Shown: positions 51,189 to 55,987 of the stretch, in pieces
How positions within the stretch are numbered: the first letter of the stretch is position 1
Layout of the letters: each line of letters opens with the position of its first letter
Made by a program: the position numbers and the translations under genes
Notes under the pieces: model-generated
The model's input: only the letters and a program-made list of their open reading frames with translations
What the model was told of the DNA's origin: nothing
The model's database searches: none
Source of the DNA: Fimbriimonadaceae bacterium
GTDB lineage: Bacteria > Armatimonadota > Fimbriimonadia > Fimbriimonadales > Fimbriimonadaceae
Reading direction: 5' to 3'
NCBI GenBank assembly: GCA_019638795.1
Contig: JAHBTB010000001.1
Coordinates: 1-64,000 of the forward strand
DNA length: 64,000 bases

Positions 51189-52286
51189 ATGGTCCCCGTT
51201 TCCGCTGTCGTCGCCGCGGTCGAGAGGCTGGCCCCGCCTGAGTTTGCATTTGGGTTCGACAGGACCGGGCTCCAGGTCGGGGTGCCGTCCGCAAGCGTGG
51301 GTAGGGTCGTCGTCTCCCTCGACTCGTCGTTGGCGGCGGTCCGGCACGCCGTCGACGTCAGGGCCCAGGCGCTCGTCTGCCACCACCCCCTGATCTGGGA
51401 ACCCTTGCGAGACCTCGCCGGTGAGGGTCGGGTCGCCCAGGCGGTGAGACTCCTCATGAGGCACGACATCGCCTTCATCGGCGCCCACACCAACTGGGAC
51501 TGTGCTCCTGGCGGGATCAACGACGTGCTGGCCGAAAGGGTCGGCCTCCTCGATGTCACCGCCTTCGGGACCGCCGAGCCAAGGCGCACGACAAAAGTCG
51601 TCACGTTTGTCCCCCCCGAGCATGAACGGGCGGTCATCGACGCCATGTCCGGCGCCGGTGCAGGCCAGATCGGCCTGTACCGGCGTTGCGCCTTCAGCAC
51701 CCTTGGGACAGGCACCTTTGAACCGGACGAGGCCGCCGACCCCTACCTCGGCAGGCCCGGCGAGCGGGAATCAGTGGGCGAATCGCGGGTCGAGATGGCG
51801 GCCCCGACGGCACGGGTCGCGGCCGTGGTCTCCGCATTGCGGTCGGCCCACCCCTACGAAGAGCCCGCCTACGACCTCGTGCCTCTCGCCGACGTCCCCG
51901 GGCAACCGGCGGGAAGGGTCGGGTTCCTTCCCTCCCCCCTGTCGGCCGCCCAGTTCGCCGCTCATGTCGACCAATGCTTGGGCACCCGGACACACCTCTG
52001 GCAGGGGCACGACCGGCCCATTGCCAAGGTCCTCGTCGTCGGCGGTGCGGCGGCGGACTGCTGGCGCGACGCGGTCCAGGCCGGTTGCGACGCCTTTGTC
52101 ACCGGCGAGGTCCCCCAGCACGCCGCCGTCGAGGCGTCCGAGGCAGGCATGACCGTCCTCGCCAGCGGGCACTACGCGACAGAAAACCCCGGCATGGCCC
52201 GCATGGCGGAGTTGCTTGGGGCCGCGCTGCCGGTGGAGGTGGAGTTCTTTGAGCCTGGACCAGGTTGGTCGGGCCGGCCGATCTAG
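51189..52286 (+). CDS. Nif3/YqfO-like dinuclear metal-centre protein
   Basis: A 365-residue protein of the Nif3-like (former GTP cyclohydrolase I type 2) family. Metal ligands are in ALVCHHPLIWEPL (about residues 60-72) and the second half's GHYATENPGM (about 318-327, with His-x3-Glu). Between them lies the PII-like insert (VTFVPPEHERAVIDAM, then GAGQIGLYRRCAF), typical of the longer YqfO form. Members form hexamers; the reaction is unsettled, and a nucleotide or DNA role has been proposed. It ends 4 bp inside the convergent nhaA gene. Confidence 0.9.
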   Translation: MVPVSAVVAAVERLAPPEFAFGFDRTGLQVGVPSASVGRVVVSLDSSLAAVRHAVDVRAQALVCHHPLIWEPLRDLAGEGRVAQAVRLLMRHDIAFIGAHTNWDCAPGGINDVLAERVGLLDVTAFGTAEPRRTTKVVTFVPPEHERAVIDAMSGAGAGQIGLYRRCAFSTLGTGTFEPDEAADPYLGRPGERESVGESRVEMAAPTARVAAVVSALRSAHPYEEPAYDLVPLADVPGQPAGRVGFLPSPLSAAQFAAHVDQCLGTRTHLWQGHDRPIAKVLVVGGAAADCWRDAVQAGCDAFVTGEVPQHAAVEASEAGMTVLASGHYATENPGMARMAELLGAALPVEVEFFEPGPGWSGRPI

Positions 52287-53611
52287 GCCCGGGCCGGCCC
52301 CGTCCGACGTCCGGCCATGGCGAGGAATCCCGCGCCGGCCAAACCGGCCACGACCGAGGTGACGAGGACGGAGAGTTTCGCCACGGTCAGCGCCTCGGTG
52401 CCGGGGAACGCCAGGCCCGCGACAAAGAACGACATCGTGAACCCGATGCCGCCGAGCAGCGACGCGCCAAAAACGTGGCGGAAGGTGACCCCACCGGGCA
52501 AAGGCAGCCGGAAGGCCTTGACCGCGACCCACGTGGCGACGAAGATCCCGAGCGGCTTGCCCAAGAGGAGCCCCAGAAAGACCCCCAAAAAGACGTGATG
52601 GCCGAGTGCCGTCGACAGCCTCGCCGCGTCCACGGGCAGACCGGCGTTGGCCAAGGCGAACAAGGGGACGATCAAGAAGACCACCCAAGGGTGGACGAGG
52701 TGGAGCCAGCGGTTGAGGGGTGTCGTCACCCGCTCGGCCGACCGTTCGAGCATTTGGAGGCTGGACTCTTGGCTCTCGTCCAGCAGGTCTGACTGACAAC
52801 CGCTGATCTCTTCGATCCTTTGCCTCGCGTTGGCCAAGAACTCCGGCACGTCGATCCTCGCCCGGGCCGGCACGGCAAACGCGGTCAGGACCCCCGCGAC
52901 CGTCGCATGGACGCCCGAGTGGTGGGTCAACCACCAAAGGACCAAGCCCAAGACTCCGTAAAAGCCCAGCCACCGGACGCCCAGCCGGCCACCGACGACC
53001 ATGACCACCCAGACCGCCAAACCCGCAAAGAGGTAGGCGGCCTTGACCGAGCCCGCATAGAAGAGCGCGATGACCACGACCGCCCCAATGTCGTCGACGA
53101 TGGCGAGGGCGGCCAAGAACACCTTGAGTCCAGTCGGCACCCGGTCGCCGAGCAGGGCGAGGACGCCCAACGCGAAGGCGATGTCGGTCGCCATCGGCAC
53201 CCCCCATCCCTTGGTCTCCGGTGTGCCCAGGCAGACCACAGAGTAGACCAAGGCAGGAACGGCCATGCCCCCGAGGGCCGCGGCCATGGGGACCATGGCC
53301 CGCCCCACCGACGACAATTCGCCGGCGACCATCTCACGCTTGATCTCCAGCCCCACGGCGAGGAAGAAGACCGCCATAAGCCCGTCGTTGACCCAGGTGA
53401 TGACTGGGTACCCCTCGGTGTACCCAGCCCACTGGAGGCCGAAACGGCTTTGGAGCAGGTCGAAGTAGGGCCCCGCCCAGGCCGAATTGGCCAGGAGCAT
53501 GGCCACAAGGGTCGCCACCACCAGCACCACGCCGCCAGCGGCCTGTTGCTCGGCAAAGGCCTGGAACGGCCTGACGACCCGCTCGATGACGGGGCTGCGG
53601 TGGACCCTCAC
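52283..53611 (-). CDS. nhaA: Na+/H+ antiporter NhaA
   Basis: A 442-residue antiporter with about twelve transmembrane helices. The ion-binding site is intact: ATDIAFALGVL (Asp about residue 142) and AIVDDIGAVVVI (the paired Asp about residues 170-171). The early VGLEIKREMVAGEL loop and the final GFTMSFFVAGLAF match NhaA. A hydrophilic loop with DESQESSLQMLERS (about 295-310) is longer than in E. coli and typical of larger NhaA proteins. The GTG start lies 1 bp after the stop of the upstream Acb2/Tad1-like gene, so translation is probably coupled. Confidence 0.95.
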   Translation of the reverse strand: MRVHRSPVIERVVRPFQAFAEQQAAGGVVLVVATLVAMLLANSAWAGPYFDLLQSRFGLQWAGYTEGYPVITWVNDGLMAVFFLAVGLEIKREMVAGELSSVGRAMVPMAAALGGMAVPALVYSVVCLGTPETKGWGVPMATDIAFALGVLALLGDRVPTGLKVFLAALAIVDDIGAVVVIALFYAGSVKAAYLFAGLAVWVVMVVGGRLGVRWLGFYGVLGLVLWWLTHHSGVHATVAGVLTAFAVPARARIDVPEFLANARQRIEEISGCQSDLLDESQESSLQMLERSAERVTTPLNRWLHLVHPWVVFLIVPLFALANAGLPVDAARLSTALGHHVFLGVFLGLLLGKPLGIFVATWVAVKAFRLPLPGGVTFRHVFGASLLGGIGFTMSFFVAGLAFPGTEALTVAKLSVLVTSVVAGLAGAGFLAMAGRRTGPARA

Positions 53612-53612
53612 G

Positions 53613-53948
53613 TCATGAAGTCTTGCCCGGGACGAGCGTGTCGGCCGACTCGTGGGCCTTGTTGGTGTTGATCACCCCTTGCCGCTCCCGCCGTCGTCGC
53701 CGGATCAGCAGGGCGTCGTGGGCCTCCTGCAAGTGGAAGAGGGCCGTCGCGTTCTCTTCGCAGGCCAGGCCGCGTCCCTGATGGTCGAGCAGCCGTTGCT
53801 GGAGCAACTCGATGACGTCCTCGATGCGGCAACCGTTCTCGCCGACCTCGTTGTAGGGCCCGTGTTGGAAGACGATCTTGATATAGGGCGTCTCGACCGT
53901 GCTTACGCTACCGTCTAGGCTCCGGTGGGCTTCCATGTTTTCTGACAT
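53613..53948 (-). CDS. Small protein resembling the Acb2/Tad1 anti-defence hairpin family
   Basis: A 111-residue protein. The segment FQHGP (27-31), EVGENG (34-39), RL (52-53), ACEEN (62-66), AL/EA-L (69-80) and R-x-R-RERQGV (84-92) followed by T and H follows the pattern remembered for Acb2/Tad1 domain proteins, whose phage forms read FQxGP, ExGxNG, RL, ACEEN, RxxRxxRGV. In phages these small helical-hairpin proteins form hexamers that sequester signalling nucleotides of CBASS or Thoeris defence. Here the gene is chromosomal, in a housekeeping context, and translationally coupled to nhaA. Start ATG 53948 has GGAG 9 nt upstream and a TACAAT -10 at 53986-53991. The assignment needs a search; if right, a chromosomal sponge or sensor is implied. 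Confidence 0.55.
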   Translation of the reverse strand: MSENMEAHRSLDGSVSTVETPYIKIVFQHGPYNEVGENGCRIEDVIELLQQRLLDHQGRGLACEENATALFHLQEAHDALLIRRRRRERQGVINTNKAHESADTLVPGKTS

Positions 53949-54052
53949 CGTCTTTTTCTCCAGGACACCGAGGCGTCCAAGCTTCATTGTAGGAAATCGC
54001 GCCTGCTCTGTGCTGGCAAGTTGTCCACACACCGACCTCACGCTCGCCCGAG

Positions 54053-54064: not shown

Positions 54065-55987
54065 GTGAACGGAACCGGGCGAATCTCTCTCGTCGCCGCC
54101 AGCTTGGCCCTTGCCTCCACGCCGGCATGGGCCGACGTCCATCTGGCCAGCGTCTTTGGCGACCACATGGTGCTCCAACGCGAGACCCAGGTCTCCGTCT
54201 GGGGTTCCGGCGCGACGCCGGGGCGACAGGTCAGCGTCTTCGGCTCGTGGGGCGCCGCAGCGTCGACGACCGCCGACAGCCAGGGCCGGTTCAAGGTCAA
54301 GCTGAAGACCGGCAAGGCGGGCGGGCCCTATCTGCTCACTCTCCGCGCCCAAGAATCCAAGGTCTACGGCGACGTCATGCTCGGCGAGGTGTGGGTCTGC
54401 TCGGGCCAGTCCAACATGGAGATGCCGGTGGGCTCCTTTGGGTGGCAGCCTCCGATCGACGACGCCCGCAAAGAGGTCGATGCCGCGAACCATCCTGACC
54501 TGCGCCTTTTCCACGTCCCCAACCGCTACTCGGCGACTCCCCAGACCGAGGTCGACGCGCATTGGGACGCCTGCACCCCGACGACGGTCACCAACTTCTC
54601 TGCGACGGGCTACTTCTTTGGCCGCGAGCTGCAGGGCGCCCTCAAGGTTCCCGTCGGGCTCATCATGACCTGCGTCGGCGGCACCGAGGCCGAACTGTGG
54701 ACCAGCACAGACAAGCTCCGCCAACTTCCGGAGTTCGCCGCTTCGCTGGCCGGACGCGCCAAGACCCAGCAGGAGTACGCCGCCCGGGTCAAGGAGGTCA
54801 ACGAATCCAACCTCCAGAAGGACCCCGGCTGGACCAAGTGGCAGGAGCCCGGCCTCGACGACTCGGATTGGGAGGCGACATCACCGACGATGTTTTCGAC
54901 CACCGGTCTCGCCCAGTTCGACGGGCTGGTCTGGTACCGGGCGGTGGTGACTGTTCCGGAGTCGGCCGCCGGCAAGACGGCGACGCTCACCCTCGGCCCC
55001 ATCGACGACGCCGACGTGACCTTTCTCAACGGTCGCCAAGTCGGCACGACCCACGCCTACAACCAGCCGCGCCAATACGCCGTCCCGGCGGGCCTTCTGA
55101 AGGCTGGTGAAAACGTGCTCGCCGTCCGCACCCACGACACCGGCGGCGAAGGCGGGTTCACCAGCCCGGGCGACATCGCCCTGAAGGGTGAGGGTTGGCA
55201 GGGCTCGTTCAGCGGGTGGAAGCGCAAGGTGAGCACCAAGCAGTCCGACCTGACCCCGTTGCCGGGCGCTCCGGGAGGCTACAGCCAACTCTACAACGGG
55301 ATGGTCGCCCCACTGCTCCCCTACACGATCAGAGGTGCGGTCTGGTACCAGGGAGAATCCAACGTCGGTCGCGGATACCAATACCGGACCCTGTTCCCCG
55401 CCATGATCGAAGACTGGCGTGCGCGGTTCGAGTCCGGGGCGTTCCCGTTCTATTTCGTCCAGATCGCCCCGTTCAGCGGCTACGGCGGTGCGTCGCCCGA
55501 CCTACGCGAAGCCCAGTTCTTGACCTTGGGCAGGCTCAAGTCCACGGGGATGGTCGTGACCACCGACCTGACTCCCGACGTCGACAACATCCACCCTCCC
55601 CGCAAGAAGGAGGTGGGGCAACGGCTGGCCGACCTCGCGTTGCGGGAAATCTTCCACAAGACGTTCGTCGTGCCGAGCGGCCCCCTCTACAAGTCCGTCA
55701 CATTTGGCGGCGGTAAGGCGACCGTCAGCTTCGCTTGGAACAAGGGCATGCACGGCACCCTGGACGGGTTTGAACTGGCCGGGGCGGACCAGAAGTGGCA
55801 CCCGGCCCAGGCGTCCGTCGTGGGGGACAAGGTCGTCGTCACCGCCGCTGGCGTCCCCGCTCCTGTGGCCGTCCGTTATGGCTGGAGCGACGTTCCCAGG
55901 CCGACCCTCTTCAACTCCACCGGCCTGCCCGCGTCGCCCTTCCGGAGCGACTCGTGGGGGCGAGTGACCCAGAAGAACAAGTGGTGA
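54065..55987 (+). CDS. Sialate O-acetylesterase-like carbohydrate esterase
   Basis: A 640-residue protein with a signal peptide (to about residue 23). The SGNH-type catalytic block GQSNMEM begins at about Gly114 (Ser116), the GTEAELW block is near 204, and YQGESNVG near 430. A jelly-roll insert (about 265-370) lies in the middle. The last ~100 residues form another beta domain. Such enzymes remove acetyl groups from sialic acid or plant polysaccharides. It is followed by a transporter and a fucosidase, so the cluster may scavenge glycans. GTG start with CATAAT 6 nt upstream. Confidence 0.9.
   Translation: MNGTGRISLVAASLALASTPAWADVHLASVFGDHMVLQRETQVSVWGSGATPGRQVSVFGSWGAAASTTADSQGRFKVKLKTGKAGGPYLLTLRAQESKVYGDVMLGEVWVCSGQSNMEMPVGSFGWQPPIDDARKEVDAANHPDLRLFHVPNRYSATPQTEVDAHWDACTPTTVTNFSATGYFFGRELQGALKVPVGLIMTCVGGTEAELWTSTDKLRQLPEFAASLAGRAKTQQEYAARVKEVNESNLQKDPGWTKWQEPGLDDSDWEATSPTMFSTTGLAQFDGLVWYRAVVTVPESAAGKTATLTLGPIDDADVTFLNGRQVGTTHAYNQPRQYAVPAGLLKAGENVLAVRTHDTGGEGGFTSPGDIALKGEGWQGSFSGWKRKVSTKQSDLTPLPGAPGGYSQLYNGMVAPLLPYTIRGAVWYQGESNVGRGYQYRTLFPAMIEDWRARFESGAFPFYFVQIAPFSGYGGASPDLREAQFLTLGRLKSTGMVVTTDLTPDVDNIHPPRKKEVGQRLADLALREIFHKTFVVPSGPLYKSVTFGGGKATVSFAWNKGMHGTLDGFELAGADQKWHPAQASVVGDKVVVTAAGVPAPVAVRYGWSDVPRPTLFNSTGLPASPFRSDSWGRVTQKNKW

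Follow-up and report, generated by a model that had tools for sequence, protein, structure and literature searches.

The window analysed here, a 64,000-nt stretch of a Fimbriimonadaceae genome (contig JAHBTB010000001.1), carries on its minus strand a Tad1-like chromosomal gene (53613..53948, 111 aa plus stop), assigned by homology in both sequence and fold. Its 111 codons run from an ATG at 53948 to a TGA at 53615-53613. The longest reading frame opens upstream, at 54128, and the conserved start is the ATG at 53948; a GGAG lying 10-13 nt 5′ of it (53958..53961, minus strand) is, judging from the sequence, a probable ribosome-binding site, and several relatives present AGGAG/GGAGG-like motifs likewise 5′ of their ATG. 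Between the stop and the GTG of the downstream neighbour on the same strand, the Na+/H+ antiporter gene nhaA (52283..53611; Pfam Na_H_antiport_1, 4.4e-137), lies a single base. Motifs follow one another along the protein in the order FQHGP (27-31), EVGENG (34-39), RL, ACEEN (62-66) and RRRRRERQGV. A first-pass annotation of the window had described a 111-residue ORF with its motifs in this order, ending 1 bp from the nhaA start, all of which we confirm in the sequence.

Compared as a single sequence with PDB sequences (phmmer), the window protein finds Tad1 in first rank, with E-values of 1.3e-6 for CmTad1 (8kbb_A) and about 2e-4 for CbTad1. A profile of 50 relatives brings CmTad1 to 1.7e-19 and gp184 of 8y6v to 3e-14, and PHROG 2428 matches the window protein at 1e-16. 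The similarity is far above chance: the ORF is a real gene, homologous to phage Tad1. The curated Pfam model PF24729 (Acb2_Tad1_hairpin) has no match in the window protein at E 10 and none in its own genome, and it matches just 2 of the 50 aligned relatives. For this reason an identity as Acb2 was rejected, and the joint Acb2/Tad1 family membership claimed by the first-pass annotation stands for its Tad1 half, by sequence and fold, and is not supported by the Pfam model for its Acb2 half.

An AlphaFold model of the window protein, built on a 50-row alignment (mean pLDDT 80, average >90 over residues 41-90), shows strands at residues 17-19 and 24-27 and helices at 42-58 and 64-90. As in Tad1, a strand and a conserved loop precede a C-terminal two-helix hairpin. 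Against the PDB, the top 20 Foldseek matches of the model are all Tad1 chains (best E 1.2e-5; rmsd 1.2-1.5 Å for CmTad1), and the rest have E >1. VIA-align against apo-CmTad1 returned Z 9.3 over 91 residues at 2.0 Å, aligned from residue 8. VIA also scored ribosomal proteins and ClpB at a middling level, probably through common helical arrangements, and these matches were set aside. The structural comparison with Tad1 proposed by the first-pass annotation comes out positive, since the best matches of the model in both Foldseek and VIA are Tad1. The Tad1 N-terminus is an anti-parallel sheet, beta1-beta4 (PMC12043709); in the model of the window protein this sheet seems shortened, with two short strands versus the four of Tad1 and low confidence at residues 6-12, so that part of the pocket may be missing.

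Conservation concentrates in a few elements of this fold. The loop of residues 27-41, FQHGPYNEVGENGCR (53826..53870, minus strand), holds the invariant Q28, G30, G36, N38 and G39, along with C40 and R41, which are typical of the Fimbriimonadales lineage. The first hairpin helix, residues 42-58 (53775..53825, minus strand), is defined by the model and the alignment and contains the invariant Q57; the preceding position, residue 56, is F, Y or H in the chromosomal family, being F in most relatives and H in the window protein. Model and alignment likewise delimit the CEEN turn with the second helix, residues 63-90 (53679..53762, minus strand), where C63, E65, N66, R83, R87 and Q90 are invariant. 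Twenty aligned positions are conserved at ≥95% in 47 chromosomal proteins, and 15 of these residues are identical in CmTad1 (Q28, G30, G36, N38, G39, E43, D44, Q57, C63, E65, N66, A69, L73, R83 and R87), compared with 12/54 positions elsewhere (p 5e-5); the same 20 positions are identical in gp184 in 13 cases and in CbTad1 in 11. As read from the alignment, invariance within the chromosomal family thus falls preferentially on residues common to Tad1.

In the same alignment, residues 56, N66, R83 and R87 of the window protein fall on CbTad1 F82, N92, R109 and R113, which we take to be gcADPR contacts. The conserved positions are spread over five elements (loop, first helix, helix turn, end of helix 2 and tail), and Tad1 pockets are composed of conserved loops, the C-terminal tail and helices (PMC12043709). 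That the protein may sense or buffer a nucleotide can be soundly inferred from this conservation of putative pocket residues. A near-constant tail, RTEDxxxxFSATGA, is present in one genus (g6) and its near relatives (L053-L064, L142, L144-L155) and absent in other genera; it is perhaps a binding or localisation peptide.

Tad1-like homologues are found in 63 of the 85 genomes of the window's family, Fimbriimonadaceae (52 of the 70 good ones), and in 5 further genomes belonging to a second family of Fimbriimonadales; beyond this order the gene was not found elsewhere among 291 genomes of the phylum. Each carrier has a single copy or two, and in one genus most members keep two. Given that 18 of the 70 good family genomes are without it, the gene is dispensable. 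Scanning about 85,000 species genomes for two conserved motifs gave 51 loci, titled Fimbriimonadales, Fimbriimonadaceae, Armatimonadetes or plain bacteria, with a few doubtful cases such as Chthonomonas; the patterns came from a narrow alignment, and distant chromosomal relatives from other phyla would escape them. Another of the doubtful loci (L116, JADZEW010000008.1) is titled Methanoregulaceae archaeon and carries a Tad1-like gene, probably in a mislabelled MAG.

The gene is under strong purifying selection. Orthologue pairs show dN/dS of 0-0.06 at dS of 0.08-0.89, and in one such pair all 102 residues are identical at dS 0.40. The gene tree separates the chromosomal proteins from four viral relatives (SH-aLRT 98) and clusters them by genus, with 26 label changes as opposed to 44.2 when shuffled. 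Distances between proteins follow RpoB distances weakly, yet more closely than expected by chance (Mantel 0.20, a value reached in 11 of 1000 permutations), and transfer inside Fimbriimonadales is therefore possible. On the RpoB tree, 14 changes are needed to account for where the gene is present, which we read as repeated loss, with transfer possible in some cases.

Around the gene, the window holds NIF3, nhaA, a sialate esterase, an MFS transporter, a fucosidase, a GGDEF-HD protein and ftsZ, with no phage gene among these identified neighbours. Across the 41 loci compared there is no constant operon partner. Several genera share synteny, with ruvC-like, dprA-like and long alpha-mannosidase-like genes (names given by reading the sequences by eye) just upstream of the Tad1-like gene. 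In genus g32 (L035, L043, L068, L069), a conserved protein of 88-94 aa is encoded 24-43 bp ahead of one paralogue of the pair.

Tad1 is a hexamer that sequesters gcADPR, CDNs and CTNs. The reading we favour, at somewhat better than even odds, is that the gene encodes a domesticated Tad1-type protein of Fimbriimonadales, predicted to act in trans as an oligomeric binder of a nucleotide signal. The chromosomal protein would form a Tad1-like oligomer and bind a cyclic or glycocyclic nucleotide in pockets between protomers, each pocket putatively combining the FQxG...NG loop of a first protomer with the CxEN turn and the R83/R87 helix end of a second. Acting in trans, it would be a buffer or receptor for a host-made signal. 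We judge a host steady-state signal (c-di-AMP) or restraint of the cell's own CBASS signals more likely than anti-Thoeris activity. A wider proposition, namely that a Tad1-type sponge was domesticated throughout the order and now does housekeeping work, receiving or buffering one of the cell's own cyclic nucleotides (c-di-AMP, or CBASS signals, which would make CBASS safe to carry), is one we hold tentatively, at a little below even odds.

As to which signal is available, the window's own genome has no match to models of SMODS or SAVED (CBASS), ThsB (Thoeris) or Cas10 (type III CRISPR), in agreement with the first-pass annotation, which had seen no CBASS or Thoeris operon here. An immune signal cannot, thus, explain the gene in this genome unless another system makes it. 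Diadenylate cyclase (DAC, the c-di-AMP synthase) is detected in 83 of the 85 family genomes, the two misses being incomplete assemblies; since it is everywhere, c-di-AMP is compatible with the gene's presence without singling it out as the signal. One particular form of the favoured reading, which we consider quite unlikely, is a host buffer that soaks up background cyclic oligonucleotides, so that CBASS can be carried without autotoxicity. All 15 genomes with CBASS parts (SMODS PF18144 or SAVED PF18145) are among the 63 carriers and none is among the 22 non-carriers (Fisher 0.009), and all 13 CBASS gains fall on carriers (hypergeometric 0.010), both p-values being uncorrected with several families tested. 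Control families are flat, with no CBASS-like bias (HSDR_N in 33/63 carriers and 11/22 non-carriers; ThsB in 13/63 and 3/22), and Thoeris, type I restriction and type III CRISPR show no positive association with the Tad1-like gene. However, 48 of the 63 carriers, the window's genome included, are without a CBASS match, and on the RpoB tree the bias keeps the same direction throughout with a median p of 0.25, which is not significant; because this tree-corrected test fails, we keep the CBASS association as a lead only. A literature search combining Fimbriimonas and CBASS found no paper. The presence of DAC also counts for a functional pair with nhaA, in which the protein would sense a nucleotide and regulate Na+/H+ antiport, since ion transport is known to be regulated by c-di-AMP; the close spacing in the two genomes of the window's genus (1 and 17 bp) counts for it too. 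Yet nhaA adjoins the Tad1-like gene only there, the loci fetched from >50 further genomes all lacking it at this place, and the neighbours otherwise change freely. A partnership with nhaA as a general feature was rejected for this limited adjacency, the link to ion homeostasis drawn by the first-pass annotation is not upheld as a feature of the protein, and we regard the pair as very improbable.

Still harder to credit is a prophage or mobile-element remnant retaining an anti-defence sponge, even if all its homologues of solved structure are Tad1 from phages or prophages and relatives with up to 49% identity occur on IMG/VR viral contigs. An IMG/VR scan with the alignment of relatives returned 8 viral loci, and one with the window protein alone no match. 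Near-zero dN/dS, a separate chromosomal clade and a plasmid search without match all speak against a remnant, as do the chromosomal genes nearby (NIF3, nhaA, MFS, fucosidase, ftsZ) and the one or two copies kept by each carrier in most of the family; it is refuted in the main by dN/dS, gene tree and neighbours. The description of the gene as a host member outside a prophage is accordingly supported by its chromosomal surroundings, its lineage-wide presence and the lack of phage genes nearby. The more serious challenge, although unlikely, is that the scaffold has been retained for a function that involves no nucleotide, for instance in protein-protein assembly. Helix 2 is highly charged (RRRRRE), orf71 of Lactococcus phage 1706 (L239, EU081845.1 49658-50011) is Tad1-like and annotated as a structural protein, and a viral relative (L077:4890-5249) sits between portal and scaffold/major head genes. 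These two viral copies hint that some relatives may work in the virion or the head module. Against such a role for the chromosomal family, its invariant residues are those common to ligand-binding Tad1, beyond what a bare hairpin scaffold needs.

Sponges of the Acb2/Tad1 type have been described as phage counter-defence, and a long-kept, strictly conserved chromosomal gene of one order suggests that bacteria themselves may use such proteins. An order-wide copy under near-complete amino-acid constraint indicates that the fold also serves cells, beyond phages. If the order-wide domestication is confirmed, a fold known from phage weaponry would have a regulatory use in the host. Should c-di-AMP or CBASS nucleotides be bound, the protein would represent a host receptor or buffer of a new kind, and it might reveal either the origin of phage sponges or the fate of a captured one.

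Among known systems, Tad1 (CmTad1 8kbb-8kbd, CbTad1 7uav/7uaw/8smd/8kbe, gp184 in 8y6v) is significantly homologous to the window protein over residues 21-97 and has in common with it the hairpin fold with the preceding strand, the loop, and the CxEN and R...R residues. Tad1 is phage-borne, whereas the family of the window protein is chromosomal and lineage-wide; about 20 residues precede the conserved strand in the window protein as opposed to about 46-60 in solved Tad1 (tags included), and the lineage-typical C40/R41 are unlike Tad1. Acb2 has a similar two-helix hairpin and is a nucleotide sponge of related type (PMC12043709), but its Pfam model does not recognise the window protein. The viral relatives from PHROG 2428 and IMG/VR (L071-L078) are up to 49% identical to the window protein and most share the NGC-IEDV motif, while being phage-encoded and placed on a separate side of the tree.
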